From Candidatus Poribacteria bacterium (GTDB lineage: Bacteria; Poribacteria; WGA-4E; B28-G17): a DNA stretch of 56,809 nucleotides. The notes under the pieces were generated by a model. The model was given only the letters and a program-made list of their open reading frames with translations. It made no database searches and was not told where the DNA came from. A program made the position numbers and the translations under genes. Below, piece after piece: positions 13,301 through 38,171 of this stretch. The stretch is taken from NCBI GenBank assembly GCA_021162805.1, contig JAGGXZ010000139.1, positions 1-56,809 on the forward strand. Reading direction: 5' to 3'. Numbering within the stretch: position 1 is the stretch's first letter; every line of letters starts with the position of its first letter.

Positions 13301-13429
13301 TTCTCTGACCTCCCCGCGAACCTTCCTCCGTCGATGAAAGGAGCAAAAAACATACCATAAGGCCAATGGGATTGGCATAGAAGTTGCTTCAGTTCGTTAA
13401 AAAACATCGAGAAAGGGAGGTTGAAGGCC

Positions 13430-13770
13430 ATGACAGGGTGGCTTTCCAAAAGGGAGAAAGGCTTCACACTTATGGAACTCCTGATAGCCGTGGCCATCGT
13501 AGCGATACTGGCCGGTGTGGGTATTCCGGTCTATACGAAGCTGCGCAGCAGCGCCAAACACACCGAGGCAAGCGCTAACCTGGATGGGATCAGGACAGCC
13601 GAAGAGGCCTACAAGATGACGAACGGTACCTACATCAACTGTGCTGCCTCTCCTAGGGATGTATCCGATCTGGCGACGGCGGGGAATCAGACGGTGACAT
13701 GGCAGGATCGGGGGACGGGGTTCACAGCTATAGGGTTTCAGCCGAACTCCGGGGTTAGGTTTGTGTATGA
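13430..13770 (+). pseudogene. Type IV major-pilin-like gene, 3' end lost and joined to pilT
   Basis: The ATG at 13430, nine bases after GGGAGG, opens a class III prepilin: a short leader MTGWLSKREKG, cleaved by prepilin peptidase before FTLMELLIAVAIVAILAGVG, then the alpha-1 spine and a globular head with TAEEAYKMTNGTY. Pilin-like sequence ends near GVRFVYEE. From about 13770 onward the DNA is pilT, read out of frame here until a stop at 14074, so the last 300 bases of the open frame are not pilin. The expected last strands of the head are missing. This looks like a deletion that joined the pilin gene to the middle of pilT; the alternative is an assembly collapse. Confidence 0.75.
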
Positions 13771-14654
13771 AGAAGGAGCTCGACTTTGCCTTCGGCGTGG
13801 AGGGACTGGCCCGGTTCAGAGTCAATCTGTTTCGTCAGCGAGGAACTCCGGCGGCCGTGTTGAGGCTTATACCGTTCAAGGTGAGGGGGATAAGAGAGCT
13901 CAGCCTGCCCCCGGTCGTAGCCGATCTGGCCATGAAGCCCAGAGGGCTTATACTGGTGGTCGGCCCGACAGGGAGCGGCAAATCCACCACGCTGGCGGCG
14001 ATGATAGACCATATCAATTCCAACGCCCGGAAACATATCATCACCATCGAAGACCCGATAGAATTCTGGCATGAGGACAAGCTCAGCTACATCAGCCAGA
14101 GACAGGTGGGACAGGACACTGCCTCCTTTTACGACGGGCTGAAATACGCCCTTCGGGAGGATCCCGATGTGATCCTGATAGGTGAGCTGAGGGACTTGGA
14201 GACGACCATGGCAGCTATAAGTGCTGCTGAGACCGGCCATCTCGTCCTAACTACACTGCATACCATCGGGGCAGATCAGACGGTGGACAGGATCATAGAT
14301 ATGTACCCTGCCCAGCAGCAGGAACAGATCAGAATTCAGCTCTCAATGACGCTCCAAGGGGTGCTATCTCACGCTCTCTTGCCCAGGAAGGATGGCAGGG
14401 GTAGGGTGCTGGCTCTGGAGATAATGGTGGCCACCCCAGCCATAAGGAGCCTCATAAGGGAGGGTAAAACCCACCTGATCAATGCTCAGATACAGACCGG
14501 AGGGGAGTTCGGAATGCAGACGCTGGATCAAGCGTTGAGAAAACTATATCTGCGGGGACTGATCAGCTATGAGACGGCTATGGGAATGGCGAGAAATCCT
14601 GAGGAATTGGCGAGGATGCTCCGGGGGGCGATAGGTTGGGAAAGGCAGCGCTGA
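13767..14654 (+). CDS. pilT: PilT twitching ATPase lacking its N-terminal ~65 residues
   Basis: Retraction ATPase of type IV pili. From KELDFAFGVEG onward the protein follows PilT closely: FRVNLFRQRG, Walker A GPTGSGKSTT, ITIEDPIEF, Walker B with VILIGELRDLETT, and the AIRSLIREGKT and GGEFGMQTLD motifs. The Walker A lies only about 66 residues from the first possible start (ATG 13767, or TTG 13761), whereas it is near residue 130 in PilT of Pseudomonas. The missing part is the N-terminal PAS-like subdomain including the SDLHL motif. No good ribosome binding site precedes the start. The 3' end overlaps pilB by 19 bases. It is probably inactive as a retraction motor, if the sequence is right. 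Confidence 0.85.
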   Translation: MKKELDFAFGVEGLARFRVNLFRQRGTPAAVLRLIPFKVRGIRELSLPPVVADLAMKPRGLILVVGPTGSGKSTTLAAMIDHINSNARKHIITIEDPIEFWHEDKLSYISQRQVGQDTASFYDGLKYALREDPDVILIGELRDLETTMAAISAAETGHLVLTTLHTIGADQTVDRIIDMYPAQQQEQIRIQLSMTLQGVLSHALLPRKDGRGRVLALEIMVATPAIRSLIREGKTHLINAQIQTGGEFGMQTLDQALRKLYLRGLISYETAMGMARNPEELARMLRGAIGWERQR

Positions 14655-16381
14655 ACAAAAAATATGAGGAGGTGCTCAGAAAGAGGAAGTTGCTCACCGA
14701 GGAGCAGATAGAGAGGGCTCTAATCGAGGGAACAAGGCGCGGGGAATATCTACATCAAGTGGTTGTCGATATGCACCTGCTCGATGCCACTACCGCCCTT
14801 CAGGCCGCCTCGGAGGAATGGGGGATAGGATATGTGGAGCTCATAGACGAAGAGCTCGATCCCGATGTGGTTAAACTCTTCCCCGAGGCGATGGCCAGAA
14901 GGTTGATCAGCATACCCATAGGTAGAGACGATGGGACGCTTTCGGTGGCGATGGCCGATCCCTTCGATCTCTTCGCCCTGAGGGAGATGGAGATCAGAAC
15001 ACATTCAAAGCTGAAAATACAACCCTACCTAGCTCTGCCCTCAGAGATAAAGAGAAAACTGGAGGAGATATATGGAAGGGAAAGCGAGGAAGTGGTCTAC
15101 GACTTCCTCCTTCAAGATGAGCTTGATGAAATAAGGGAGATCGAGGAGTACCTTGAGGAAGAGGAGGAACAGGGAGCGGAGATCGATCTTATGGGGTCCG
15201 CCATAGAGGAGACACAACGGTCATACGTGATAAGGCTCGTCTGGAAGATAATCCTTCAAGCTATCAAGGAGGGAGCAAGCGACATACACATCGAGCCTTT
15301 CCCCAGGGAATCGGCCGTCAGGTTCAGAGTGGATGGCAGCCTGCAATATAAACGTCCTATTCCCAGGCCGCTCCATAACGCCGTCATATCCAGGATCAAG
15401 ATCCTCTCCAAGATGAATATAGCCGAAAAGAGGCTTCCGCAGGACGGTAGAATAGGGCTCAAGGTAGGGCCGAGAAAGGTGGAGCTGAGGGTATCCGTCA
15501 TACCCGCCGTTTATGGCGAAAGCGTTGTTATGAGGATACTGGATAAAAGCAGGGCTATAATGCCGCTTTCGGAGCTCGGATTCAGCGATGAGAACCTGAG
15601 GACGTTCGAGGAAATGATAAGGAAGCCCTATGGAATGATACTCGTCAGCGGCCCGACCGGAAGCGGTAAATCCACCACCCTCTTCTCAGCGCTCAACACC
15701 ATAAAGAGGCCGGAGCTGAAGATACTGACCGTGGAAGACCCTGTTGAGTATAACCTCGAGGGGATAGTGCAGGTGCAGGTCAAGGAGGAGATCGGCCTGA
15801 CCTTCGCCAGAGTGCTCAGATCCTTCCTCAGACAGGACCCCGACGTAATAATGATCGGTGAGATGAGGGATCAGGAGACGGCCTCCATAGCCATAAGGGC
15901 AGCCCTGACCGGACATCTGGTCTTCAGCACCATCCATACCAACGACGCCTCCAGCAGCGTCACGAGGCTGGTAGACCTCGGCATCGATCCATTTCTCGTC
16001 GCCGATTCGGTGTTGCTCGTTGTAGCCCAGAGGCTGGTGCGGAGGATATGCGATAACTGTAGGGAGGAGATCGAGCCCACCGGTGAGATGCTCGATCTGC
16101 TGAGAGAACATAGGATTCCGCTGGAAGATCTGCATATATCCAGGGGAAGAGGATGTAAGAGGTGTAATTTCACGGGACTGAAAGGGAGAACAGCCATACA
16201 TGAGCTCCTCGTGGTGGATGAGGAGATAAAAGAGCTTATCCTCAAGGGAAAAACCGCTATGGAGATCAAGGAGTTCGCCAGGATCGAAAAGGGCATGAGA
16301 ACGCTCAGGGAGGACGGATTCGGAAAGGTCGCAAAGGGGATAACGACCTTTGAGGAAGTGATAAGCAGAACTCTGGAGTGA
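14636..16381 (+). CDS. pilB: Type IV pilus assembly ATPase PilB
   Basis: Extension ATPase that powers pilus assembly on the inner face of the membrane. The 581-residue protein has the full family length: an N-terminal GspE_N domain (about 1-150), an acidic linker with a run of glutamates near residue 170, then the ATPase core with SDIHIEPF, an arginine-rich segment, Walker A GPTGSGKSTT near residue 340, VEDPVEY, Walker B with DVIMIGEMRD, HTNDASSSVTRL, and the zinc-binding cysteines CDNC and CKRC. The start is a TTG at 14636 inside the end of pilT. No lesion is visible. The stop overlaps the region of the HD-GYP gene start. Confidence 0.95.
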   Translation: MGKAALNKKYEEVLRKRKLLTEEQIERALIEGTRRGEYLHQVVVDMHLLDATTALQAASEEWGIGYVELIDEELDPDVVKLFPEAMARRLISIPIGRDDGTLSVAMADPFDLFALREMEIRTHSKLKIQPYLALPSEIKRKLEEIYGRESEEVVYDFLLQDELDEIREIEEYLEEEEEQGAEIDLMGSAIEETQRSYVIRLVWKIILQAIKEGASDIHIEPFPRESAVRFRVDGSLQYKRPIPRPLHNAVISRIKILSKMNIAEKRLPQDGRIGLKVGPRKVELRVSVIPAVYGESVVMRILDKSRAIMPLSELGFSDENLRTFEEMIRKPYGMILVSGPTGSGKSTTLFSALNTIKRPELKILTVEDPVEYNLEGIVQVQVKEEIGLTFARVLRSFLRQDPDVIMIGEMRDQETASIAIRAALTGHLVFSTIHTNDASSSVTRLVDLGIDPFLVADSVLLVVAQRLVRRICDNCREEIEPTGEMLDLLREHRIPLEDLHISRGRGCKRCNFTGLKGRTAIHELLVVDEEIKELILKGKTAMEIKEFARIEKGMRTLREDGFGKVAKGITTFEEVISRTLE

Positions 16382-16386
16382 GAACC

Positions 16387-17454
16387 ATGAGAAGGGATAA
16401 GGAGTTTCTAGAGATGATATCATCCGTCCTTTATGAGGCGGAGGATATCGATCTGCTTCTGCAGAGGATAGGGACTTTAGCCAGCGATCTGGTATCCGCC
16501 GAGGGTTCATCGATCCTTATCTTCAGCGATGATAGATCTCACCTCTATTTCAAGCACTCCAGAGGCAAAACGGCACCCATCCTGAGAAGAATCAAAGTGA
16601 GTTCCGGAATCGCATGGTGGGTCGCTCAAACCGGCGAATCGGCAATCGTTAACGACGTGGAATCGGACTCCAGATTCACCGGAGAGGTGGACAGGATCAC
16701 AGGGCTTAGGACACGAAATCTGATATGCGTTCCCCTGAAGGAGGGGGACAAGGTCATAGGCGTGATAGAGGTGATAAACAAAGTCGGAGATGGAGGATTC
16801 ATCCGAGAGGATCTGGAACTGTTGGAGATGCTGGCCCGTCAGGTGGCCGTCGCAATTACGTTCGCCGAGAGGCTAGAGCGATATCGGAACTTCTTCTCAA
16901 ACTCGATAGAGATATTCGTCAAGGCGATCGAAACGATCGGGGTGAGGAGGGGGATAATGTTCCCCGGGCACTGCTGGAGGATCGCCGAGGCATCCACCTT
17001 CATGGGACAGCTCCTGGGGGTAAACGGGAAAGAGCTCGACAGACTCTATTACGGCGCCGCGCTGCACGACATAGGCATACTCGAATGTCGGGATGAGGTA
17101 TGGGAACCGGTGCTGGAGGAGCCCTGGCAGAGCCTTAAAAACCATCCGGTCGCAGGTGCGAACATGATCAGGGAGATCAAACTCCTGGCCGATTCATCCC
17201 CCATAATCAGACATCATCACGAGAACTTCGACGGAACCGGTTATCCGGACGGGTTGGAGGGCGAGAAGATACCCATAGGTGCCAGGATAGTCTCCGTGGC
17301 CGAGAGGTATGAGGAGCTGCTGCTCAATTCCTCTCAGACGAACGGCTCGAGGAGGACGATCGTGGATAAAATGGAGGAGATGGCAGGCAAAGAGCTTGAC
17401 CCCGGGATTGTTGGGATATTCCTCTCAGAGATTCTGAGGGTGAGGGGAGATTAG
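16387..17454 (+). CDS. GAF/HD-GYP domain protein (putative c-di-GMP phosphodiesterase)
   Basis: A 355-residue cytosolic signalling protein placed between pilB and pilC. Residues about 15-160 form a GAF sensor domain (SSILIFSDDRSHLYF, GIAWWVAQTGESAIVND, LICVPLKEGDKVIGVIEVINK). Residues about 175-345 form an HD-GYP domain with GHCWRIAE, ALHDIGIL, HPVAGANMI, HHHENFDGTGYP and the GARIVSVAERYE segment, so metal ligands and the GYP are all present. Family members hydrolyse cyclic di-GMP, which commonly controls pilus extension. The ATG at 16387 has GGAG at eight bases; a GTG at 16378 overlapping the pilB stop is the other option. Its position within the operon suggests direct control of this pilus. 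Confidence 0.9.
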   Translation: MRRDKEFLEMISSVLYEAEDIDLLLQRIGTLASDLVSAEGSSILIFSDDRSHLYFKHSRGKTAPILRRIKVSSGIAWWVAQTGESAIVNDVESDSRFTGEVDRITGLRTRNLICVPLKEGDKVIGVIEVINKVGDGGFIREDLELLEMLARQVAVAITFAERLERYRNFFSNSIEIFVKAIETIGVRRGIMFPGHCWRIAEASTFMGQLLGVNGKELDRLYYGAALHDIGILECRDEVWEPVLEEPWQSLKNHPVAGANMIREIKLLADSSPIIRHHHENFDGTGYPDGLEGEKIPIGARIVSVAERYEELLLNSSQTNGSRRTIVDKMEEMAGKELDPGIVGIFLSEILRVRGD

Positions 17455-17456
17455 GA

Positions 17457-18653
17457 ATGGCGAGGTTTAGATTTTCCGCCAGGGATAAAAAAGGAATGCT
17501 GAGGAGGGGAACCATCGAGGCGGAAACTGTTTCCTCACTCGTGAGACAGCTTAGGGATAGGGGACTGCGCGTGATGTCCGTCTCACCCATAGGACATAAA
17601 CCCGGATCAGGCTCCGTCCTGAGGAGGATCGTTCTCATCAAATCTAAGGTCAAGCCCAAGGATCTGGCGATCTTCACCAGACAGTTCGCCATGATGCTTG
17701 AAGCAGGTGTAGATATCGTCAAATCGCTTTCGATCATAGAGGAACAGACGGATCATGTGACGCTGAAGGAGGTTATAGGTGAAATCAGAGAGGAGGTGGA
17801 GAGAGGACGGTCGCTTGCGGAGGCGATGGGGATGTACCCGAAGGTGTTCGACCGTTTCTACATCCACATGATGGAGGCGGCTCAAACCAGCGGCTCCTAC
17901 GAGAACGTGCTTATGGATATAGCGACCGATATCGAGAAAAGGGAGAGGATAAAGGGCAAGGTGAAATCATCCCTGATGCCCTCTCTGACAACTCTCGGGT
18001 TCGCCTTAATGCTCTGTTTCAGCCTCATAAGGTTCGTCGTCCCTCAATTCGTGGACCTCTATAACGGCGTCGTCAATCTGCCCAGACCGACTCAGATCCT
18101 TCTGGACGTGAGCCGATTCATACAGGGACGAGGAGGAGCGATTCTCCTTCTGGGAATTATATCGACAGCCATCATCCTCAAAAAGGCCATATCGAACGGG
18201 ACAGGAAGATACATATGGGATGAGATGAAGTTCAAGATGCCCCTTTTCGGCCCCCTGATAAGGAAGATCGCCATAGGTCATTTCGCCAGGACCCTGGGAT
18301 TGCTCTTGGGAAACGGCGTGGATTATCTCCTTGCTCTGGACATCGTCGCCAATGCCTCTAAGAACGTCTTCCTATCCCAGATCCTGCGACGGGCCAGGGA
18401 TCAGGTTAACAGGGGAATGCTCCTATCCAAGTCGCTCATGGAAAGCGGCATCTTCCCGCCCATGGTCATACAGATGATCTCATCGGGCGAGGAGGCGGCG
18501 AGACTTCCGGAGATGCTCGAGAGGATATCCCGCATATGTGAGGAGGAGATAGATAGATCGGTTGAAAGGTTGAGCGGGATGGTGATCCCGATCATGACTC
18601 TGATCATCGGCGCTATAGTGGGCGGCATACTGCTGAGCCTCTATCTGCCATGA
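17457..18653 (+). CDS. pilC: Type IV pilus inner-membrane platform protein PilC
   Basis: Polytopic protein of the GspF/PilC family that sits under the pilus and couples to PilB/PilT. The 398 residues contain two GspF repeats, about 65-190 (FTRQFAMMLEAGVDIVKSL) and 270-390 (HFARTLGLLLGNGVDYLLAL), each followed by hydrophobic helices; the last helix ends in LIIGAIVGGILLSLYLP. Length and ends are normal for the family. It starts two bases after the HD-GYP stop and its own stop overlaps the pilM remnant start by ATGA. Confidence 0.95.
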   Translation: MARFRFSARDKKGMLRRGTIEAETVSSLVRQLRDRGLRVMSVSPIGHKPGSGSVLRRIVLIKSKVKPKDLAIFTRQFAMMLEAGVDIVKSLSIIEEQTDHVTLKEVIGEIREEVERGRSLAEAMGMYPKVFDRFYIHMMEAAQTSGSYENVLMDIATDIEKRERIKGKVKSSLMPSLTTLGFALMLCFSLIRFVVPQFVDLYNGVVNLPRPTQILLDVSRFIQGRGGAILLLGIISTAIILKKAISNGTGRYIWDEMKFKMPLFGPLIRKIAIGHFARTLGLLLGNGVDYLLALDIVANASKNVFLSQILRRARDQVNRGMLLSKSLMESGIFPPMVIQMISSGEEAARLPEMLERISRICEEEIDRSVERLSGMVIPIMTLIIGAIVGGILLSLYLP

Positions 18654-18931
18654 AAAGGCCGGATGGACTGATACAATCGTTAAAAAGCCGGTTTGAGTAC
18701 CACATGGCCGATTATCCCCCTCCGCAGCGGGTGATCCTGACAGGCGGACTCTCCCAGTTGCCCTTTATGGTGGAGCTTCTCTCGTCCGAGCTCTCCCTCC
18801 CTGTGGAGAGGATAAGATATCTTGACCGGTTCGATCTGGATCGAAGGGGTGAAGGGGTGAAAGAGATGATTGACAATCAAGCTCTGTTCGCCACGGCGAT
18901 AGGGTTGGCTTTGAAGGTGATGGCGGAATGA
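18650..18931 (+). pseudogene. pilM: PilM remnant: C-terminal end only
   Basis: PilM is an actin-like cytosolic protein of about 350 residues that binds PilN. Only 93 residues remain here. The segment RVILTGGLSQLPFMVELLSSEL with the later FATAIGLALKVMAE matches the end of PilM (the VLTGGGA-LPG strand and the final helix). The first residues MKRPDGL could be the original PilM start, which in homologues runs straight into the GLDIG phosphate-1 motif, so the pattern suggests an in-frame internal deletion of roughly 250 codons that kept both ends. The ATGA overlap with pilC and the overlap with pilN are preserved. The ATPase-like core is absent. Confidence 0.75.
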
Positions 18932-19518
18932 AGGTAGTAGAGGTAAATCTGCTTCCACCTGAATATGCGCCTGAAAGCCCATATAGTGTGAGGAACATAA
19001 TCATACTCCTCCTCTCATTCCTGATACTCGGTTTCCTCATACTCATCGCCTTGCAACTTGTGGCGTTAAAGGAGAGATACGTGGCGGAGAACGTGAGGTT
19101 GGTTACAGCGATTAACGCCTTCAAGAAGGAGAAGGGGAAATTGGACTCCCTTCTCGAAAGGAAATCCGAGCTGGAGAAAAGATTCGAGATGGTGAGGGAG
19201 GCTTTAGGGAGGAGAAGGACATGGGCGGATAAGCTCACCGATATCTGGAGGGCAATACCGGATGGGATATGGCTTCAAGGCATATATCTGCGCGGGGTGG
19301 AATCGCAGGGAATACCATCGCTCAGGATATCGGCTTCCGCCCTCGACCTTGGACGTATAGAGAAGTTCATCCGACGGCTTAAAAGGTCGCCGTATTTTAA
19401 GGGGGTTATCTCCATCTCCGTGAATCGTCAAACCACCTCAGGGGGTGGCTTCTATAATTTCGAGTTGAAGCTTCCGCTCAAAGAAGATTCAACAGGCCAG
19501 CTTCCACTTACAAGGTAG
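18928..19518 (+). CDS. pilN: Type IV pilus alignment protein PilN
   Basis: Bitopic inner-membrane protein that links cytosolic PilM to periplasmic PilO. The N-terminus VVEVNLLPPEY is the conserved INLLP motif that docks into PilM, followed by one membrane helix (about residues 23-48), a coiled-coil region and a ferredoxin-like domain with IPDGIWLQGIYLRG. The 196-residue length is normal. It overlaps the pilM remnant by four bases. Because PilM lacks its core, the INLLP motif here may have no partner. Confidence 0.92.
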   Translation: MKVVEVNLLPPEYAPESPYSVRNIIILLLSFLILGFLILIALQLVALKERYVAENVRLVTAINAFKKEKGKLDSLLERKSELEKRFEMVREALGRRRTWADKLTDIWRAIPDGIWLQGIYLRGVESQGIPSLRISASALDLGRIEKFIRRLKRSPYFKGVISISVNRQTTSGGGFYNFELKLPLKEDSTGQLPLTR

Positions 19519-19526
19519 GTATAGTC

Positions 19527-20093
19527 ATGTTCCTGAATGTTTTGAAGAGGTCTCTTATATACATGCTCATGTGGGCCATAACGATGTTCTCCTTCTACCT
19601 CATCGTGTGGAAGCCAAATGTGGAGGAGATCGAGGCGCTTGGAAGGCAGATCTCGATCAACCGGAAGAGCCTGAGCATGATACAGAAACAGATAAAGGAG
19701 GCCCCTGAGATCAACGAGGAGGAGCTCAATATGATTGAGAAATCCCTCGACCTGTTCCTGGCCAGAATACCAGCCGAGGTGGATCTGCCAGATATACTGG
19801 AAAGGGTGAGAGAGTTGGGGATCCGGAGACACGGGCTACGGATAAACTCCCTATCCGATGTGAGATCGGTCAAGGTGGCGGATAAAAAGGGGGGGTATTC
19901 AAAGGCCATATACAGGCTCATCGCTGAGGGCGATTTCAGAGGAATGGTAGGATTCATACGGGATTTGGAGAGCTCCCAGAGGCTCATCTCGATCGAATCC
20001 TTCTCCATAAAGGCAAGGGAGCTCGATCTGATGTTCGCCGTCCTCTACTGTCCGATTAAGGCGGAGGTGAAATCGGATGGTGAGACTCGATAA
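19527..20093 (+). CDS. pilO: Type IV pilus alignment protein PilO
   Basis: Bitopic inner-membrane protein, 188 residues: one helix at about residues 9-28, a coiled coil through residue 75, then a ferredoxin-like domain with EVDLPDILERVRELG and a C-terminal MVGFIRDLESSQRLISI segment, as in PilO. It pairs with PilN in the periplasm. The 3' end overlaps pilP by 17 bases. No damage is visible. Confidence 0.9.
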   Translation: MFLNVLKRSLIYMLMWAITMFSFYLIVWKPNVEEIEALGRQISINRKSLSMIQKQIKEAPEINEEELNMIEKSLDLFLARIPAEVDLPDILERVRELGIRRHGLRINSLSDVRSVKVADKKGGYSKAIYRLIAEGDFRGMVGFIRDLESSQRLISIESFSIKARELDLMFAVLYCPIKAEVKSDGETR

Positions 20094-20526
20094 CCTTATA
20101 TTCATCGCGATAGCCGTTCTGCTGGTCATATGCGGAGCGATGGAGTATCGGCTGATCGAGAGAAGGATATCCGCTATGCCAATGCTGAGGCTAACACATC
20201 AGGTGAAGGAGAACGAGAAGCTGAATGAGATGCTCAAATCGATTCTGCGTCCCACTTCGATCACCCCTTTACCCTCAAAAGACCCGTTCGAGCCCCCGGA
20301 TCTCCTGAAAAAGAAAGGGGATGAAGGGATCGAACTGAAGCTCACGACGATCTGTTGGAGTCGATCCAGAGCGATGGCCGTCGTAAACGGCAGGATATTC
20401 GAGGAGGGGGAGAGCGACCCAACGAGCAGGTTTACGGTCGAGAGGATCGATCCCGACGATGTGATCGTCAGACTGACAAAAGGAGGGAGTAAAACCTTGA
20501 AGATCAAGGGGGTGAAGGGACAATGA
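20077..20526 (+). CDS. pilP: PilP-like pilus protein
   Basis: A 149-residue protein between pilO and the secretin gene. It has an N-terminal membrane helix (about residues 8-24) rather than the lipobox of proteobacterial PilP, a linker with PSKDPFEPP that matches the conserved DPF motif, and a small beta domain (KLTTICWSRSRAMAVVNGRIFEEGE) of the PilP/GspC homology-region type. It should connect the PilNO complex to the secretin. Assignment rests on the DPF motif and gene order. Confidence 0.8.
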   Translation: MVRLDNLIFIAIAVLLVICGAMEYRLIERRISAMPMLRLTHQVKENEKLNEMLKSILRPTSITPLPSKDPFEPPDLLKKKGDEGIELKLTTICWSRSRAMAVVNGRIFEEGESDPTSRFTVERIDPDDVIVRLTKGGSKTLKIKGVKGQ

Positions 20527-21449
20527 GGCTAAAGATCCTCATCATCATTGCGATCCTGATTTCAACCCTCTGGTTTTCAACCTTCTGCTGGGGATTGATA
20601 GCCAGGATAACCTCAATAAAGCTCAGTCAGGAGAACGGGGGTCTTGTTGTAAGGCTGGAGGGAAACGGCAAGATGGAGTTTCTCCTCAGACCGAGCTACT
20701 ATAAAGGCGATAAGCTCGTGCTTTTCGGTGATATCCCAAACTCCTATTGTTTCGTAAACGGTAGGAGACGATGGAGGAGTCTGAACCCGCCGGATGAAAG
20801 AGTGGAAAAGGTACTACTTGCCCAGTATACCTTCAATCCGCCCGTGACGAGGTTGGTCTTCCTTCTGAGCGAGGAGGTCTATCCGGAGGTGCGGAGCGAA
20901 CGCCGTTCGCTGATACTCTTCTTTCCGCCCAACGAGCCGAAAGGCGACCAACCGATCATGGATAAAATCGTGACCATAAGGTCGGAGGGCGAGACGCTGG
21001 GGAAAATGTTGAGGCTGCTCTTCGAACAGTATGGGGCAAATTTCATCGTCGAGAAGGGGGTGGATGTCAATCAGAAGGTCACCCTCAACCTCAGGGATGT
21101 GCCGCTCAGAGTGGCTCTCAGGGAACTTTTGAGTTCGCTCGGCTATCGGTTCGAGGAGACCGAAGGAGGAATAATAAGGGTAACAGCGAGGAGGAGCCAG
21201 CCTCAGGTCAAACCGCCCCCCCAACCTCCTGCTGGGTTTGCCGTTAAGACCTTCCGGCTGAAATACATATCCCCTGCCAATATCATACGGGCCCTGAGCG
21301 GAACGCTGCCTGAGGGGATCAAGGTCACGGGAGATGAGGCAAGTCGAACCTTAATCCTGTCGGGCGATGAGGTGGGGATAAAAAGGCTGGAGCCCATGGT
21401 AAGAAAGTTGATAGGGGAGATAGACCTGCCCCACCTGAAATGCCAATGA
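20523..21449 (+). CDS. pilQ: Secretin PilQ, N-terminal half (frameshifted)
   Basis: Periplasmic half of the outer-membrane pilus secretin. After a signal peptide (about residues 1-24) come an AMIN-type domain (about 28-130), an STN/N0 domain (about 148-225, with LNLRDVPLRVALRELLSSLGY) and a first N1 domain (about 245-305, with KTFRLKYISPANIIRAL). The frame then ends within a few codons at TGA after LPHLKCQ. In the other frame the sequence continues directly into the rest of the secretin. Adding one C to the CCCC at 21429-21432 would restore DLPPPEMPMKREIEE and a single protein of about 640 residues. The gene starts inside the last codons of pilP (ATGA). Confidence 0.85.
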   Translation: MRLKILIIIAILISTLWFSTFCWGLIARITSIKLSQENGGLVVRLEGNGKMEFLLRPSYYKGDKLVLFGDIPNSYCFVNGRRRWRSLNPPDERVEKVLLAQYTFNPPVTRLVFLLSEEVYPEVRSERRSLILFFPPNEPKGDQPIMDKIVTIRSEGETLGKMLRLLFEQYGANFIVEKGVDVNQKVTLNLRDVPLRVALRELLSSLGYRFEETEGGIIRVTARRSQPQVKPPPQPPAGFAVKTFRLKYISPANIIRALSGTLPEGIKVTGDEASRTLILSGDEVGIKRLEPMVRKLIGEIDLPHLKCQ

Positions 21450-22453
21450 AGAGGGAAATCGAGGAGAAGCCTAAGCCTATCAAGAGGGTGTTTAAGATCG
21501 TCTACTCCGATCCGGAGGAGCTCAAGCGTATATTTACACCTCTGCTCTCCACTCAGGGTAAAATAGAAGCGATTACGGCCTCAAAGGGAGGATACGAAAT
21601 AAAGCAGCCTTCAAACGCAAACGGCGGATACCTGATAATCTCCGACCTTCCGGAGGTGATCTCGACGATCGTGGAGGAGCTTAAAAAGCTCGATCGTCCC
21701 GCGCCTCAGGTGGAGATACGGGCATATATCATCGAGAGGACGATATCCGATGAGGAGCAGATGGGATTTAGCTGGAATTTCGGATATAGGAAAAGGAAAC
21801 TTACCCTCAACGGCAGATCATCGGAAGATACGAGATCGAAGGGATTTTTGAACCTGCGCTACGGCACTCTATCTCCCGCCGAGTTCAACGCCGTTTTAAG
21901 GATGATCTCATCCAGTTCCAGGGCGAGAGTGCTTTCCAATCCCAGCATCACCGTCCTTGAAGGCCAGCAGGCGAGATTCCATAGTGGAGACCAGGTGGGA
22001 TTTTCGAAGGTGACGATACAGCAGGGGATAGAGATGGTTGAAACGGAGTTCAAGGACCTCGGCGTGGTCCTGACCGTCACACCTCATGTTAAGGAGGGGA
22101 AAGCCGTCATGCTGGACATAGACATACAGGTCAGCGATCTCGGCGAATTGACCAAGACGGGTGAGCCGACGATCTCGACCAGAGAAGCACAGACCGAGGT
22201 GCTGGTGCGGGATGGTGAGACGTTGGTCATAGGAGGGCTGACATCTGAGAGAAAAATCCGTTCGACGGAGAAAACCCCTCTCCTGGGCGATATCCCGCTT
22301 CTGAAACGGCTCTTCACCTCTCACAACACAACTTCCAAGAGAAGCGAGGTGATCGTCTTCATAATTCCGAGAATAGCTAACCCGGTCGGAACTGCAGGTA
22401 ACTCTCCAGAAGACAAATGCGTCGGCCTTGTCCAGTCGCCTCGAAATCCCTAA
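21440..22453 (+). CDS. pilQ: Secretin PilQ, C-terminal half (frameshifted)
   Basis: Contains a second N1 domain (RVFKIVYSDPEELKRIFTPL) and the membrane-pore secretin domain: VEIRAYIIERT, ARVLSNPSITVLEGQQA, FKDLGVVLTVTPHV, ISTREAQTEVLVRDGETLVIGG cut here for length, and PLLGDIPLLKRLF with the terminal VIVFIIPRI. There is no signal peptide, and the ATG at 21440 lacks a ribosome binding site, so this half is unlikely to be made or exported on its own unless ribosomes shift at the C-run. It is best seen as the second part of one pilQ gene broken by a one-base loss. Confidence 0.85.
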   Translation: MPMKREIEEKPKPIKRVFKIVYSDPEELKRIFTPLLSTQGKIEAITASKGGYEIKQPSNANGGYLIISDLPEVISTIVEELKKLDRPAPQVEIRAYIIERTISDEEQMGFSWNFGYRKRKLTLNGRSSEDTRSKGFLNLRYGTLSPAEFNAVLRMISSSSRARVLSNPSITVLEGQQARFHSGDQVGFSKVTIQQGIEMVETEFKDLGVVLTVTPHVKEGKAVMLDIDIQVSDLGELTKTGEPTISTREAQTEVLVRDGETLVIGGLTSERKIRSTEKTPLLGDIPLLKRLFTSHNTTSKRSEVIVFIIPRIANPVGTAGNSPEDKCVGLVQSPRNP

Positions 22454-23857: not shown

Positions 23858-25059
23858 GACTTAAGGCGGCAGATAGCATCTGTCATAACGGCGACCCGTT
23901 TCATCTGCTTAACGTCATGCACTCTCACAACATCAGCACCGTTCGCTATTGAAATCGCCACGGTGGCCGCCGTTCCCTCCAATCGCTCTTCCACAGGCAG
24001 ATCTCCCAGCGCTTTGCCTATAAAGGATTTGCGTGATGTGCCGATGAGAATCGGAGACCCTAGCGATTTGAACTCCCTCAGCCTGCGGAGTATCTCGATG
24101 TTGTCCTCATACCTCTTGCCGAAACCTATTCCAGGATCGATCATGATCCTATCTCGATCGACGCCGCCTTGAAGGGCTGCTTCGATCCTCTCATCTAGGA
24201 AGGAGTAGATCTCAGAGATAAGGTCATCATACTCAGGGGATACCTGCATGGTTTTAGGAGTGCCCTTCATATGCATCAACACCACGCCGACCTTCCCCCT
24301 TGCGGCCAGATCCACCATCCTAGGATCTCTAAGGGCTGTTATGTCGTTTATAATCGAAGCGCCGGAATCTATAGCCTCTTCAGCGACTGAAGGCTTATAT
24401 GTATCGATGGATATAGGTAGATCGATTCTTCTGGCGATCTCCTTTATGACGGGGATCACCCTTCTTTTCTCTTCATCATCATCGACCGGATCGGCGCCCG
24501 GGCGAGAGGATTCACCGCCCACATCTATGATATCGGCTCCTTCCTCGGCCATCCGCTCGGCGTGCGCTATAGCATCATCAAGCTTGAGAAATCTGCCGCC
24601 GTCCGAGAAGGAGTCGGGTGTGACGTTCAGGACCCCCATTATGAGCGTCCTTTGGCCTAGGATTATCTCCCTTCCGGCACAGTCCATACATCTTCGGCCC
24701 TCAAGTTCGTAGTTATCGATCGCCTTTCTGATTTCCTCGGCCGCTCCTTTCAACCCGAAGGGCTGAACTGAAAGCTTTTTCAGGAACCCTTCAAACTGTT
24801 TCTTAGTTCCCATGACTAGGACGGTGGTTCTTTCCGTCTCGAGCGTCAGGGTCTCCCTTGCGGTGGCGACCTCTCCCCCCAGCGAAAGCATCTCCTGTTT
24901 CATGATATTGGCGGCCGTGGTTCTAACCCCTTCGACCCTGACCAGATAATGGAGCCCTTTGGGCGTCATTATCCTGGTTCCATAGATGGTCGCGCCGATC
25001 CTTTGTATCTCCCTTTTAATCTCATCTTCACGCTCAAGCTTCAGAACCCTTGCCCTCAT
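23851..25059 (-). CDS. folP: Dihydropteroate synthase, long form
   Basis: Joins 4-aminobenzoate to the pterin pyrophosphate in folate synthesis. The enzyme domain starts near residue 138 with [15 protein letters not shown], followed by [37 protein letters not shown] and [10 protein letters not shown], with [10 protein letters not shown] near the end; all substrate-binding motifs are intact. The first 120 or so residues form an extra domain ([21 protein letters not shown] cut here) known from the long FolP form of some Firmicutes and other thermophile-related bacteria; its role is unknown. The ATG lies inside the last codons of ftsH, a 26-base overlap. Confidence 0.95.
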
Positions 25060-28000
25060 CGCTAACCTCTGTCGGGCCGTTGAACTTCGCAGGCTGTGCC
25101 TCTTCGAGGCTCGGTCTCGGGCCGAGGATCTCCTCGATCTCCTTGGCGTCGAGCACCTCCTTCTCCAGCAAAGCTTCGGCCAGCCTTTTGAGCTTGTCCA
25201 TGTTGTTTTGGATTATGCCTTTCGCCCTGTCATAACATTCGTTTATTATCCGCTTCACCTCGTTATCTATCTCAAGTGCCGTTCGCTCGCTATAATCCTT
25301 ATGTCTTGCCAACTCCTTACCCAAGAAGATCTGTTCCTCCCGTTTGCCGAAGGTAACCGGTCCGAGTTTCTCGCTCATCCCCCATTCACATACCATCTTT
25401 CTCGCCAGCTCCGTTGCCCTTTCAAAATCGTCCTTTGCGCCTGTGGTCGGATCGCCGAATATCAGCTCCTCCGCGACGCGCCCTGCAAGACGTGTGGTTA
25501 TCTCGGCCAGCAGATATCTCTTGCCGTAGTTGTGCCTCTCCTCCAAGGGTAACTTCTGGGTGATGCCAAGGGCCCTTCCTCGGGGGATAATACTGCACTT
25601 ATAATTCGGGTCTCCTTCGGGCAGCAGATGTGAGACCAAGGCGTGACCTGCCTCGTGGTAGGCGATAACCCTTTTCTCCTTATCGCTTATCAGCATGCTT
25701 CTCCTTTCGGGCCCCATCATCACCTTATCCTTGGCCTCCTCAAGGCACTCCATATCCACGAACTCCTTGTTCTTTCGGGCAGCTATAAGAGCCGCTTCGT
25801 TGACCATGTTCTCGATGTCGGCTCCGGAGAAATAGGGTGTTCCCTTTGCCAGGATTTCAATATTATCCCAGACCTCCGGTGCCGTTCTGACGTTCTTCAG
25901 GTGTATCTTGAAGATCTCAGCCCTACCCTTCACATCGGGCAGATCGACGACGATCTGTCTGTCGAATCTTCCCGGCCTCAGGAGCGCCGGATCAAGTATA
26001 TCCGGTCTGTTCGTGGCCGCGATGACGATCACGCCTTCGGAGGAGTCAAACCCGCTCATCTCGACGAGCAATTGGTTGAGCGTCTGTTCCCTCTCATCAT
26101 GCCCCCCGCCGATACCTGCTCCCCTGTATCTGCCGACGGCATCGAGCTCATCGATAAAGATTATGGCAGGTGCGTTCTTCCTGCCGGTTTCAAAGAGATC
26201 TCTCACACGACTGTTGTGAAGCAATATGGGTTTTTCACCGCCGAAGAACGCCTCATTTTCACACCCACATAGGTCATAGACATATCCATCATACGGCATA
26301 GCCACAACTTCCCTAACGATCGGGCTCTTCCATTGGTTGGGTATATCCGGCTCTTCATCCGCCAGCGGGTTACACGTTTTTCCTATTATAAGCCTCCAGT
26401 ATTTACCTCCAGGAAGCGGCTTACTTTTAATGATACGCCCTGGTTTTTGGTTCATCTCCTGGATCCCAACGGCGATACCATGCATTGAACACAACCATGC
26501 TAACTCGAGAATTAGCTGACGACTGGCGGAAGTAACGGAGAGTTTCCCCTCTTTGGTGGTATAGCCATCTCCGAGCACGTAACCTTCGAGGTACGACCTG
26601 AAATATTCGAACGGTAGATCCCATAGTATCTCAGGGATATGTTTGTTTCTGCTGCCGTTTCCACAAAGCGTGGCGAAAAACCTGCCGAGAGGAGCAGAAT
26701 GATAGGTGATGCGTACCGTGTTATCCGTCGTCTCAGTAAGCTTCGGCTCCAGATTGAATATCTTTTTCACCAGGTGAATCAAATCGAGATGTAGTTCCGT
26801 CTCGTGTTTGCCGAAGATGAATTCCACGAATTGGCCCGGGGACCTCCCCTCAGCGGTGTAATATCCCAGAAGCTTCATTAGAGCCGGTGTAACGGTCACT
26901 TTCTCCGGGAGGCCGATCTCAAAGGATCTATAGGTCAAGGGGCGTGGAATATGAACTCCCCTCTGCCAATTTCCTACGGTCGCCTGCGATACGCCTATGA
27001 TCTGAGCTATTTGGCGTTGAGACATGTCCTCAGCATGTTCTAAAGCGAACTTATACTTCTCAGCAAATTCAAACTTCTCCTCAGCGACCAGCAACACTAC
27101 AGGCTCTTCAGCTGGTTCAAACCTATGAGCTCTAACATGGTGAGGGGTACCATATTCCGGGGAGTGTTTTCCTCTCACCTTGAACGGCAGTGAGACCAAT
27201 ACATCACCGGGCTTAAGATCACGCGTGGGTTTAGCTATAATACCGTTGCGGGTTCGGACGAACACGCTATGATCGCCCGTTGTTCTCACCTTACCTCCGA
27301 GATATCGGATTTCATAGATTTCATTTACCTTGTGGCGATATACCCCATAGACACTCTTCCAGGCGCTGCACCCGAAGAACCTTTTAGACGATCCCTTAAA
27401 CTTGGATTCTTTCTCCTCGAAACCTAAAGTTTGAACGCCCTTAACTGGAACGATAAATCCCTCTTCGCCATCCCGGTAGAACTGATCTACGAACTCGCCT
27501 ATAGGCATCAACCTGGTACCCCGTTCCGATCGAATCAACACGGGGGTATCCCCTGTGACGGATGCTCCCACACCTACAAACATCTCCACGAAATCGGAGC
27601 CGCTTATGCTGAAGAAGGGAACACCGGCTTCGCCCGCCACAGCACGTGCGAGCAGGGTGTTGTGCGAGATAAATCCATTCGAAATAAAGGAATGATCGGT
27701 GGGAACGGTGAAATCGTAGACATCTGCATAACCATATTCGATAGATTGAACCGGGGAGAAGAACAGATCGATACTTGCTAATCGCGAGAGATATTCCACT
27801 TCATCCTTGCGAACTATATCTCCGAAGGCCTGCACGAATTCCTTTAGTGTATTGCGGGAAACGCGGCCTCGATCTCGCACTTTATCAATAAGCGCTGCCA
27901 ATCGACTTGTGCTTCTTCCGGATAAGCTAAGCTCCTTCCAGCATTCAACGAGTATATCGCTGATGTTGTAAAATAGGTCCACATTTGTGTTGGTTCCAAC

Positions 28001-29473
28001 GTTTGCCCTCTGCAGATATTCATCCATCAATTTCTGTTTACGCTTCAGCCTAAACCCGATCTCTCTGGCGAATTTGGGCAGATAAACACCGGAGATGGTT
28101 ATCTCATAAACCCTGTGCGGATGGTTTCGGCCAACCTCGGATTTGACGCGAAGCTTGGGAACGATACCAATGTTCAACAGCATCGCTGTTACTTGATCGG
28201 CCAACCTCTTGCTCGTCGTGCTGTAACCGAAGGCATACCGCTGGAAGTAACCGTCAGCGTCAAACAATCCCTGAAGGAACGATATCTGCACCTCTTTAGG
28301 AGCTTGTAGAACGGTGTCGGGAACTGATTTGTCATCCGCTATCTCCGCATCCTGAGTCGTTAACTCAACTCGGTTGCTTACGCTCATATTGCCATCGCCC
28401 GTCAGCAATCCCATCAGATAAGCCTGCTCCTCATCCACTTCGCTCGAATGGCCGAAGATTTGAGTGTTAAATTTAATCGCTGCGATGTCCCCCTCTTTAA
28501 GCTCGGAGAGCGGTCGGAATTCCAACCTCCCATCCTCGTTCATCATGATGATGGGGTGTTCCGGAGTACCTTCAATCGTCACCCCCTGTTTCAGCGTAAT
28601 CCGGATCGTAGGTTGTTTCCCAAGATGATACCAATGCGACGCCCGATTAACTTTGGGCTTCAACGTATTCAGATCTATCGTAGGAAGATAAGCCCCTTCA
28701 ACCATATTTGTATGGGGATCAACCCAGAAATACCTCGGAATATCCTGTATCTCAATTAGACCTTTATTGGTAAGAATGAGGGTATCACCTACGACGCATT
28801 TCCCTGTGCCGGGGGGACCGACCAGAAGCACGCCTTTTGGTATCCTTCCGCCGAGACGCTGATATTTCTTCGGATCTCTGAGGAAATCCACTACCTCTCG
28901 TAGCTCCTCCTTCGCCTCCTCGCATCCGGCCACGTCATCGAAGGTTTTCTTCGGATGCGATTCGCTGAACCTTTTGGCTCTGCTCTTGCCGAAGGAGAGG
29001 GCTTTGTTTCCCGCCCCCTGCATCTGTCTGGAGATGAAGATCATGACGGCTATGAACAACACCACAGGGAGAAGGCCGCTGAGGAGCATCGTCAGCCACT
29101 GAGGGAAGTGCGAGGAAGGCTCTATGTAGAAGGTCACACCGTATTTCAACAGCTCCTCCTCAAGCGGATAGTTGGAGAACGGATCCCTCGGTATCCTGAA
29201 CCTCTCAAACGGCCTGGACTCTATGACCTGCCTTCCCTGAACGGGGAGATACTGCGGTTCGGTGAACTCCCCCTCGATCCACTCCTTACCTATATATACC
29301 CTCGCTACCTTCCCCTGTTCGATGAGCTTATGAAATTCACTGAAGGGAAGGTTATCGTATGTCTGAGCTTTTTGAGGTCTAAGTATCTGATAGGATGCGA
29401 AGACGAGAATAGATACCAGAATGAGCCAAACAAGCATCCCTCTGGCATTTCTGTTCACGAGAAATCCCCTCAC
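25034..29473 (-). CDS. ftsH: FtsH membrane protease interrupted by two inteins
   Basis: ATP-dependent zinc metalloprotease that degrades membrane and short-lived proteins. The 1479-residue product contains 649 residues of FtsH and two inteins of 380 and 450 residues. FtsH parts in order: membrane helix (13-30), periplasmic domain, second helix (132-148), AAA domain with GPPGTGK (residues 219-225) then intein 1 (226-605), 32 residues ending in the pore motif MFVGVGA, intein 2 (638-1087), then [22 protein letters not shown], the SRH region, and the protease domain with HEAGH (1273-1277) and a later aspartate. Both inteins must splice out for a working enzyme. The first GTG is at 29473; a GTG at 29458, six to seven bases after GAGGGG, may be the true start. 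A good promoter lies upstream. It overlaps folP. Confidence 0.95.
26213..27562 (-). other. Intein 2 in FtsH, beside the pore-loop motif, with DOD endonuclease and helix-turn-helix
   Basis: A 450-residue intein between FVGVGA and SRVRDLF. It starts with serine ([10 protein letters not shown], block A), has block B with [12 protein letters not shown] (T-x-x-H), an inserted helix-turn-helix ([19 protein letters not shown]), LAGLIDADG-type motifs LLGYYTAEG and LEGYVLGDG about 95 residues apart, block F with [16 protein letters not shown], and ends LLHN with serine as the +1 residue. Ser1, TxxH, final His-Asn and Ser+1 are all present, so splicing looks competent. The spacing of the endonuclease motifs is normal, so the endonuclease may be active. 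Confidence 0.93.
27659..28798 (-). other. Intein 1 in FtsH Walker A, with shortened DOD endonuclease
   Basis: A 380-residue intein inserted after the lysine of GPPGTGK, directly before the threonine of the ATP-binding loop. It begins [13 protein letters not shown] (block A, Cys1), has block B with [10 protein letters not shown] (T-x-x-H), DOD motifs MGLLTGDG and LQGLFDADG, and block F with [16 protein letters not shown] ending ISHN, with threonine as the +1 residue. All splicing residues are present. The two DOD motifs are only about 47 residues apart, roughly half the usual distance, so part of the homing endonuclease is missing and it is probably inactive. Confidence 0.93.
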
Positions 29474-35327: not shown

Positions 35328-37384
35328 CTCATCCTATAGGCCACTTTGAAATATCCCACCTGTTCCCTTTTATCCCCCTCCTCGTTGTAGGTGTAAACGA
35401 GGAAGAGGTTGCTTTCGGGTTTAAACTCCCAGGAATAGAGGGCGAAGAGGCTTCTATGGCCGTCGAGCTTCCCCTCTGCGGTGACCCTCAAGGTCATATC
35501 CTGGGTGAACCTGTAGTCGAGGACGGATCGGATTATCCTTTGATCCTCCTCGCCCTCCATCCTAAGCCACTGCCCTTCAATTCTGATGGAGGCCATTTCA
35601 ACCGGCCTGAGGCTCAATCCGGGGCCAAGAAAGATCACGTTCCTCTCATCCCTGGTGCCGATCTTGAAATCCATATTGAGCGTCACAAACTTGGGTGGGA
35701 ACCAGCCGAAAAAGCCGTCTATGCTGCGATCGTTATATCCGATCGAGATGTCCTCCGGGTCCGTTCTGAACTCCTTCGAAAGGCCGGTTCTCAGGAAGAA
35801 ATCCCACAGACCTATCATTCCCCCGATCTCCCATCTCTCGTTTGTCCTGATGCCGTCGATCGTCTCGCCGTAGGAATAGCCCGATCCGAATCCCAAATGC
35901 CTCAGGAGCCTGCTCTTGAATTTCCTGTGAAATCCCCCCTCAAGCCTGATTCCCCTTCTACCTATGAAGATATCCGGCAGGAATCCCGCCTCTGCGGAGA
36001 AATCCTTTCCCACCTGCTGGAGGCCGATGGATATACCCACCGGATCTTTATTCCAGCCGCCCCTTATCGTGAAAGCCGTATCGGATTTTCCCTTTTCGCC
36101 TCTGTCGGTTTGGCTGGCCGCCATCTGACCTGAGAGGCTCAGTTCATGGGGAAATCTCAGCGAAAAGTCCACGCCTCCCACCCTGTTTGCGCCCCCGGAG
36201 TATTGTTTATTTACTGCCAGCAGGCCGATCGTCGATCTTTGTCCTACATCTCTCTGGATTCTGGCCACCATGAAGTTCGCCGGTGGTTCGATCTCCTCAC
36301 CCTCCTCATTTTCCACTTTTTCGGCCTGTGTGTCGAAAAGGGCGAAGCTATATCCGCCGACTTTGCCCACCGCCTTGGCTCCGACGAGGGGTTGGAGGAT
36401 CTTACGGGTGTAGAAGATATCGAGTGGCGTTCTGAAAAGCTCCTCTCCCTCCATGAAGAAGGGGCGTTTTTCGGGGAAACGGATCGGTATGTCCGAGAGA
36501 TTGATCCTTTCAGGATCCGCTTCGATCTGGGCGTAATCAGGGTTGACGGTCAGATCGACCGTGATGTTTGGGAGCGGTATCCTCACATCCACGCCCGCAT
36601 TTGCGTCCACCGATCCCTCCTCGACGTTGCCGCTTGAGGTGAGATACGGTTTAAACTCCATGGGTCTTGATGTCACCAGCCTTTCGGTGGGAAGCCCAAC
36701 CAGGTCACCGTAATATGCCGGATCATGGCTGCTCTCGCCCGGATACGCCCACACGTCCTCCTCATCCAGCCACTCGATGTTTCTGAGGAAGTTTATCCCC
36801 CAGCTTTCATCAGGTCCCTTTTCGAATCTGAGCTCACAGAAGGGTATGGCTATCTCGGCCGTCCATCGATCCTCCAACCTCTGCGATCGGGCATACCACT
36901 CGCAATCCCAACTTTTACCCCTTCGGAACGGCCCTCTCCTAGCCCTCGTGTATCGCTCCTCAGATTTAGTTGAAAGGGGGTTGACCGAGAAGATATAAGC
37001 GTTGCGCCTGTCGTGAAAGGTATCCAGCATCACCTCGACATAGTCGTCATTCCAGAACTCCTCATCGTGTCTGGTTGCATTTGCCTGTACCTTCTCCATA
37101 TCATGCATGAAACATTCGAAACCGACGTAGAGAAACTTATCGTCATAGAGGAGGTGGACAACTGTTCTCTCGGAAGGCTTTCCACCGCGCTGAGGTTCGT
37201 CCTGTATGAAATCATCGACTTTCGCTGCTTTCTTCCAAACATCATCGGTGAGAAACCCATCTATCTTGGGCGGACGATCCGTCCTGATGGCCTTAATCAC
37301 TTTCACGCTCCGTTCCGCCTGAGCGAAGATGACCGAGCAGAGGAGACAAAAGATGATGCTAAGAACCAGAGTTTTCAGGTGCAT
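35309..37384 (-). CDS. CBM9-like/DUF5916 outer-membrane beta-barrel protein
   Basis: A 691-residue exported protein. After a signal peptide (cleavage near residue 23, FAQAERS) comes a carbohydrate-binding family 9-like sandwich (about 32-230) with PPKIDGFLTDDVWKKAAKVDDF, YDDKFLYVGFEC and YVEVMLDTFHDRRNAYIFSV. This is followed by the DUF5916 region (about 240-691) with VNPDYAQIEADPERINLSD, FPEKRPFFMEG and FYTRKILQPLVG. The tail consists of alternating beta strands ending in the aromatic-rich YFKVAYRMRWQP, as in outer-membrane barrels. The role is probably binding or uptake of glycans at the surface. The last residue is leucine rather than the usual phenylalanine or tryptophan. It overlaps mazG by 26 bases. 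Confidence 0.88.
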   Translation of the reverse strand: MHLKTLVLSIIFCLLCSVIFAQAERSVKVIKAIRTDRPPKIDGFLTDDVWKKAAKVDDFIQDEPQRGGKPSERTVVHLLYDDKFLYVGFECFMHDMEKVQANATRHDEEFWNDDYVEVMLDTFHDRRNAYIFSVNPLSTKSEERYTRARRGPFRRGKSWDCEWYARSQRLEDRWTAEIAIPFCELRFEKGPDESWGINFLRNIEWLDEEDVWAYPGESSHDPAYYGDLVGLPTERLVTSRPMEFKPYLTSSGNVEEGSVDANAGVDVRIPLPNITVDLTVNPDYAQIEADPERINLSDIPIRFPEKRPFFMEGEELFRTPLDIFYTRKILQPLVGAKAVGKVGGYSFALFDTQAEKVENEEGEEIEPPANFMVARIQRDVGQRSTIGLLAVNKQYSGGANRVGGVDFSLRFPHELSLSGQMAASQTDRGEKGKSDTAFTIRGGWNKDPVGISIGLQQVGKDFSAEAGFLPDIFIGRRGIRLEGGFHRKFKSRLLRHLGFGSGYSYGETIDGIRTNERWEIGGMIGLWDFFLRTGLSKEFRTDPEDISIGYNDRSIDGFFGWFPPKFVTLNMDFKIGTRDERNVIFLGPGLSLRPVEMASIRIEGQWLRMEGEEDQRIIRSVLDYRFTQDMTLRVTAEGKLDGHRSLFALYSWEFKPESNLFLVYTYNEEGDKREQVGYFKVAYRMRWQPKL

Positions 37385-38171
37385 CTGACCCCTCCTTAAT
37401 CTGATCCCATATCTCGTCCATCTCCTCCAGCGACATGTCTCTCAGGTCTCTGCCCATACTTTCAGCCCGCTTTTCGAGTTCCCTAAACCGTCGTATGAAC
37501 TTCTCATTAGCCTTTCGGAGTGCCTCCTCGGGCTCGACCTGGAGAAGGCGGGCGAGGTTCACGATGGCGAATAACAGATCGCCGAGCTCCTCCTCGATTT
37601 CCCCAAGTTCACCGGAGGAGATGGCCTCCCTGAGCTCCTCTATCTCCTCCTCTATCTTCGGCAACACCTCCTCGGGCTTGCCCCAATCAAACCCCACCCT
37701 GGAGGCTCTCCCCTGAAGTTTTCGAGCTCTCAGAAGGCTGGGAAGGCTTGCCGGTATGCCGTCAAGTACCGATCGTCTGTCCTGATATCCCTTCTCCCTG
37801 CGCTTGATCGCCTCCCAATTGGAGAGCGCCTCCTGAGGTGAGGAGACGCGCACGTCGCCGAAGACATGAGGATGGCGTCTGATCAGTTTCTCGGTTATGG
37901 TCCGAACGACGTCATATGCGTCGAACAGATTCTTCTCGCTTGCGATCTGGGAGTGCAACATCACTTGCATAAGCAGATCCCCCAGCTCCTCACGCAGCTT
38001 ATCCGGATCGCCGGAGTCTATCGCCTCCAGCACCTCGTATGTTTCCTCCAGCAGATTTGATTTGAGCGTCTCGTGTGTCTGAGCTTTATCCCAGGGACAT
38101 CCGTTTTCGCCTCTCAGCGCCGCGACCACATCGACGAGCCTGTCGAAAGCCTTTACGTCCTTCCCCATCAA
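37359..38171 (-). CDS. mazG: Nucleoside triphosphate pyrophosphohydrolase MazG
   Basis: Hydrolyses nucleoside triphosphates to monophosphates, cleaning the nucleotide pool. The 270-residue protein has the two MazG domains of the long form. The first begins GCPWDKAQTHETLKSNLLEE and continues ELGDLLMQVMLH with the metal-binding glutamates and aspartate. The second has KIEEEIEELREAI and EEELGDLLFAIVNLARLL. The family tail lies within residues 225-265. Its end overlaps the DUF5916 start, an unusual neighbour, so the overlap is more likely genome compaction than shared function. Confidence 0.95.
   Translation of the reverse strand: MMGKDVKAFDRLVDVVAALRGENGCPWDKAQTHETLKSNLLEETYEVLEAIDSGDPDKLREELGDLLMQVMLHSQIASEKNLFDAYDVVRTITEKLIRRHPHVFGDVRVSSPQEALSNWEAIKRREKGYQDRRSVLDGIPASLPSLLRARKLQGRASRVGFDWGKPEEVLPKIEEEIEELREAISSGELGEIEEELGDLLFAIVNLARLLQVEPEEALRKANEKFIRRFRELEKRAESMGRDLRDMSLEEMDEIWDQIKEGSDAPENSGS

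Follow-up and report, generated by a model that had tools for sequence, protein, structure and literature searches.

A type IVa pilus gene cluster probably in recent decay in an uncultured Poribacteria lineage

The gene cluster for one type IVa pilus system of an uncultured Poribacteria bacterium is probably in recent, locus-specific decay. It lies in the window analysed here, the whole 56,809-nucleotide contig C139 of a 4.35-Mb draft genome that comprises 232 contigs and is 95% complete. The cluster contains two joins between gene fragments and one frame break, and parts of its genes are missing; the counterparts in relatives are intact, and no second pilT was found in the genome. All lesions were read in one draft assembly; from it we infer that they are present in the organism, beyond the assembly alone, how large the events were and in what order they came, and that function was lost. 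The original prediction, made from the DNA letters, had described one join, of a pilin gene to pilT, and had missed the pilC/pilM join and the split pilQ. Because this second join and the split lie in the same cluster, the case is one of cluster decay rather than of a single odd fusion.

The closest named matches of the window PilT include Candidatus Poribacteria (top identity, 71%). The cluster was compared mainly with those of two relatives, G001, from the same family as the window genome, and G005, which matches DTYX01000705 (Candidatus Poribacteria UWMA-0232). Gene order is shared as pilin–pilT–pilB with G005, as pilB–GAF-HD–pilC with both relatives and as pilM–N–O–P–Q with G001. Whereas the type IVa clusters of G001 and G005 have full-length pilin, pilT, pilC, pilM and pilQ genes, as far as their contigs reach, the window cluster does not (Table 1).

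Table 1 Features of the window cluster, with the evidence for each (positions are those of the window).
Feature	Position	Strand	Evidence
Hybrid open frame, pilin front followed by ~100 residues read from pilT out of frame	13421–14074	+	ORF list; Pfam match for the N-terminal motif only
Type IV pilin 5′ part, 115 codons to VRFVYEE, C-terminal part absent	13430–13774	+	N_methyl motif; alignment to intact 195-codon G005 frame
Junction 1, pilin to pilT, frame change +1, at most ~8 bp ascribable to both genes (GAAGAAG-like)	13766–13780	+	Sequence; G005 comparison on both sides
Headless pilT, 295 codons from ATG, ATPase domain intact, first ~64 model positions absent	13767–14654	+	TIGR01420; G005 PilT; solved structures
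pilB extension ATPase, full length	14636–16381	+	T2SSE and MshEN domains; TIGR02538 positions 4–562 of 564
GAF-HD protein, beside pilB/pilC in relatives too	16378–17454	+	Pfam; relatives
pilC without its last ~12–15 codons	17457–18653	+	69% identity to G001 pilC, ending at residue 401 of a 413-codon frame
Junction 2, pilC to internal pilM	18645–18653	+	DNA similarity to G001 pilC contig ends at 18649
pilM 3′ fragment, 93 codons	18650–18931	+	60% identity to G001 PilM residues 260–356 of 361; PilM_2 positions 276–338 of 340, below cut-off
pilN	18928–19518	+	Pfam PilN
pilO	19527–20093	+	Pfam PilO
pilP-like gene	20077–20526	+	Weak T2SSB match below cut-off; same place in G001
pilQ N-terminal half	20523–21449	+	STN and Secretin_N; matches residues 244–428 of 759-codon G001 frame
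Frame break within pilQ	21430–21447	+	Single uninterrupted G001 frame, with the halves flanking residues 428/431
pilQ C-terminal half, secretin domain	21440–22453	+	Secretin, E = 6.2 × 10−47; matches residues 431–759 of G001 frame

The pilin frame from 13,430 carries the prepilin N-terminal motif (Pfam N_methyl, E = 1.4 × 10−8), and its match to the G005 pilin runs to V-R-F-x-Y, with the tyrosine codon at 13,766–13,768 and the glutamate codons at 13,769–13,774. The similarity stops at this motif, with pilT DNA beyond it, and the C-terminal globular region of the pilin is incomplete. PilT sequence begins at about 13,769, in the +1 frame relative to the pilin, and the third-codon-position G+C content shifts to the PilT frame across ~13,700–13,790. 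The ATG at 13,767, a possible start for reading PilT, sits within the pilin frame. The G005 comparison and the TIGR01420 profile, which the window PilT matches from position 65, agree with the original prediction that the pilin is normal up to GVRFVYEE and is followed by PilT from residue 65 in another frame, the pilin lacking its C-terminal strands and PilT its N-terminal subdomain. The word 'fused' suits the joined DNA, but not the protein, as the pilin frame continues past the junction as unrelated sequence until 14,074, with no in-frame protein fusion. In G005, pilin, pilT and pilB are intact and in the same order, and 535 bp separate the points that adjoin in the window; measured on this relative, ~535 bp are thus absent at junction 1. 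The predicted deletion gains support from this intact arrangement and from the failure to find a second pilT or the PilT front in the genome.

TIGR01420 scores the window PilT at 425 bits (E = 1.7 × 10−127) versus a cut-off of 319, over profile positions 65–343 of 343, whereas the intact G005 PilT covers positions 2–343. With positions 1–64 absent, the N2D domain of the window PilT is incomplete. The G005 protein is the closest PilT, with 72% identity across its residues 67–357, and solved PilT structures align with the window PilT from residue 68–93 onward. In a residue-by-residue alignment to the solved chains, the Walker A motif, Asp box, Walker B motif and His box are all kept. A PilT at E ≤ 1 × 10−45 is present in six of 83 genomes of the class, and of these six only the window genome has a best match that starts beyond the first four residues of the query. 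A search of the 95%-complete genome for a second pilT, or for the missing PilT front, found neither. In Geobacter PilT, the N2D comprises residues 1–100 and forms packing units with the C-terminal domain of the next subunit (PMC6858323). A PilT starting at about residue 65 would keep the catalytic domain and lose most of the hexamer contact to the next subunit.

The headless PilT might nevertheless be in use: translated from the ATG at 13,767, it would act as the shortened ATPase of a rebuilt pilus system. What is left of PilT is an open frame, as similar to G005 as stated above and complete in its ATPase motifs, GGTTAGG precedes the ATG by 7 bases, and stop and start codons overlap as ATGA both at pilC/pilM and at the pilQ split, all of which would suit such a use. 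However, about two thirds of the N2D is gone, the pilin would bear an unrelated tail, PilM is a 93-residue stub and the secretin half of PilQ begins without its N-terminal half, and we regard retained use as very improbable. Also very improbable is a reading in which the headless PilT, arising from the internal ATG or by a frameshift that fuses it to the pilin, would be the shortened ATPase of a rebuilt, non-retracting filament system.

Junction 2 is likewise of the deletion type, the truncated pilC continuing into the last quarter of pilM. After pilC, the relatives G001, G004 and G005 carry an ABC transporter and a permease, whereas the window carries the pilM fragment at this place. On the same G004 contig, the permease is followed by further frames, including minor-pilin-like ones, and then by a second pilB-like gene and a pilM front. 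Searches of the window genome returned, for an orthologue of the transporter ATPase, a best match of 46% identity, which is not orthologue-level; for the permease part of the query, none of the matches listed; and for PilM residues 1–259, only weak similarity to other PilM-like genes. With no orthologue-level match to the transporter, none among those listed to the permease part and only weak ones to the PilM front, the pilC–pilM interval was not found on another contig.

The other pil frames of the cluster remain open. Relative-rate tests, run as a check for relaxed selection, detected no significant acceleration in any single remaining pil gene. Because the frames are open and no single gene is significantly accelerated, any decay must be recent. 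Besides the frame break, the N-terminal part of pilQ is ~366 bp shorter than that of G001 (20,860–20,952, from alignment offsets), a multiple of three that may reflect natural domain variation.

In the remaining window genes that have a counterpart on the retrieved G001 contigs, including fmt, rpe, nth, mazG, folP and ftsH minus its inteins, no truncation or split was found beyond contig ends. The odd-looking ends of rpe and nth at ~34.6 kb were considered as truncations and dismissed, both genes being near full length relative to G001. On four further contigs of this genome, the genes in the stretches viewed seem uninterrupted, as judged by inspection rather than by a formal test. The two joins and the frame break fall within ~9 of the 56.8 kb and in one pathway, with none comparable in the other compared genes. 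Random placement of three lesions within ~9 kb would have a chance of ~0.004, a rough value, as not all outside genes are comparable and the locus was picked after the first lesion.

Two further differences were noted outside the cluster. The ftsH gene (25,034–29,473, − strand) carries two inteins. The first, which contains a LAGLIDADG domain, follows GPPGTGK inside the Walker A motif, and the second separates GVGA from SRVRDLF; G001 ftsH lacks the first and has a shorter version of the second. At 37,307–37,391, from the mazG-like gene to the neighbouring 691-residue gene, G001 is longer by ~716 bp, by insertion or loss.

Three lesions in one 9-kb stretch may also amount to one badly assembled stretch. 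The true cluster would then be intact, and the assembler would have skipped ~0.5 kb at pilin/pilT and several kilobases at pilC–pilM, triggered, for example, by strain variation or low coverage at the skipped stretches. Several features fit such a misassembly: the genome is a draft of 232 contigs from a single assembly, the frames that remain are open and resemble those of relatives, and both joins are of the deletion type, with lost parts that include the pilin C-terminal region and probably minor pilins, which frequently vary from strain to strain. However, the skipped pilC–pilM interval was not found on other contigs. The shared sequence amounts to at most ~8 bp at junction 1 and is likewise short at junction 2; a de Bruijn graph assembler at usual k would need more to make such a join. 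Moreover, the pilQ frame break is of a different type from the joins, the rest of the window yielded no comparable lesion, and the stretches read contain no Ns. A scaffold gap from which Ns had been removed was rejected on the last two grounds. Misassembly is the main rival reading, but we consider it clearly less likely than real decay.

Decay of the cluster, the reading that we prefer, would have involved three events. A deletion of about half a kilobase would have taken the rear of the pilin gene, which encodes the C-terminal part, together with the spacer and the opening ~64 codons of pilT, possibly through a short GAAGAAG-like repeat; this route is plausible because the stretch ascribable to both genes is at most ~8 bp, and proof would need the ancestral sequence. 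A second deletion would have joined pilC to the rear of pilM, taking from between them the ABC transporter and permease genes and probably minor pilins as well, and a frame break would have split pilQ. As a result, the pilin C-terminal region could not be made, most of the PilT N2D would be gone, PilM would be reduced to a stub and the PilQ secretin domain would be severed from its N-terminal half. Loss of the retraction motor and of an intact pilin from this system can be soundly deduced from these genes. Given the truncated pilin, the N2D loss, the PilM stub and the split PilQ, the system most likely neither assembles nor retracts.

The original prediction was of no functional fibre and no retraction motor unless intact copies exist elsewhere. 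For this system the prediction probably holds, as the genome has no other pilT that we could find. It does not extend to the whole genome, in which other pilin-based systems look intact: by inspection, a second type IV pilus-like set with pilB, pilC, pilin, pilM and pilQ-like genes and without pilT (C192 and C126), a type II secretion system (C214) and a Tad locus (C145). The loss of fibre and motor would therefore be confined to the system in the window.

If real, the decay would mean that a retractile pilus system has been lost in one Poribacteria lineage with its other pilus-like systems intact, perhaps as a sign of a changed lifestyle. Automatic annotation could call a retractile pilus that is absent, because the PilT fragment still exceeds the curated TIGR01420 cut-off. 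Such decay is most likely ordinary gene decay, for which there is precedent. Francisella tularensis type B carries pseudogenes of pilT, pilE and pilV, so that there too a type IV pilus system has naturally lost its retraction ATPase and pilin genes (PMC2941502). The damage differs, however: a point mutation has created a stop codon in the Francisella type B pilT (PMC2941502), whereas in the window a deletion has cut pilT and joined it to the pilin gene, and pilC, pilM and pilQ are damaged as well.
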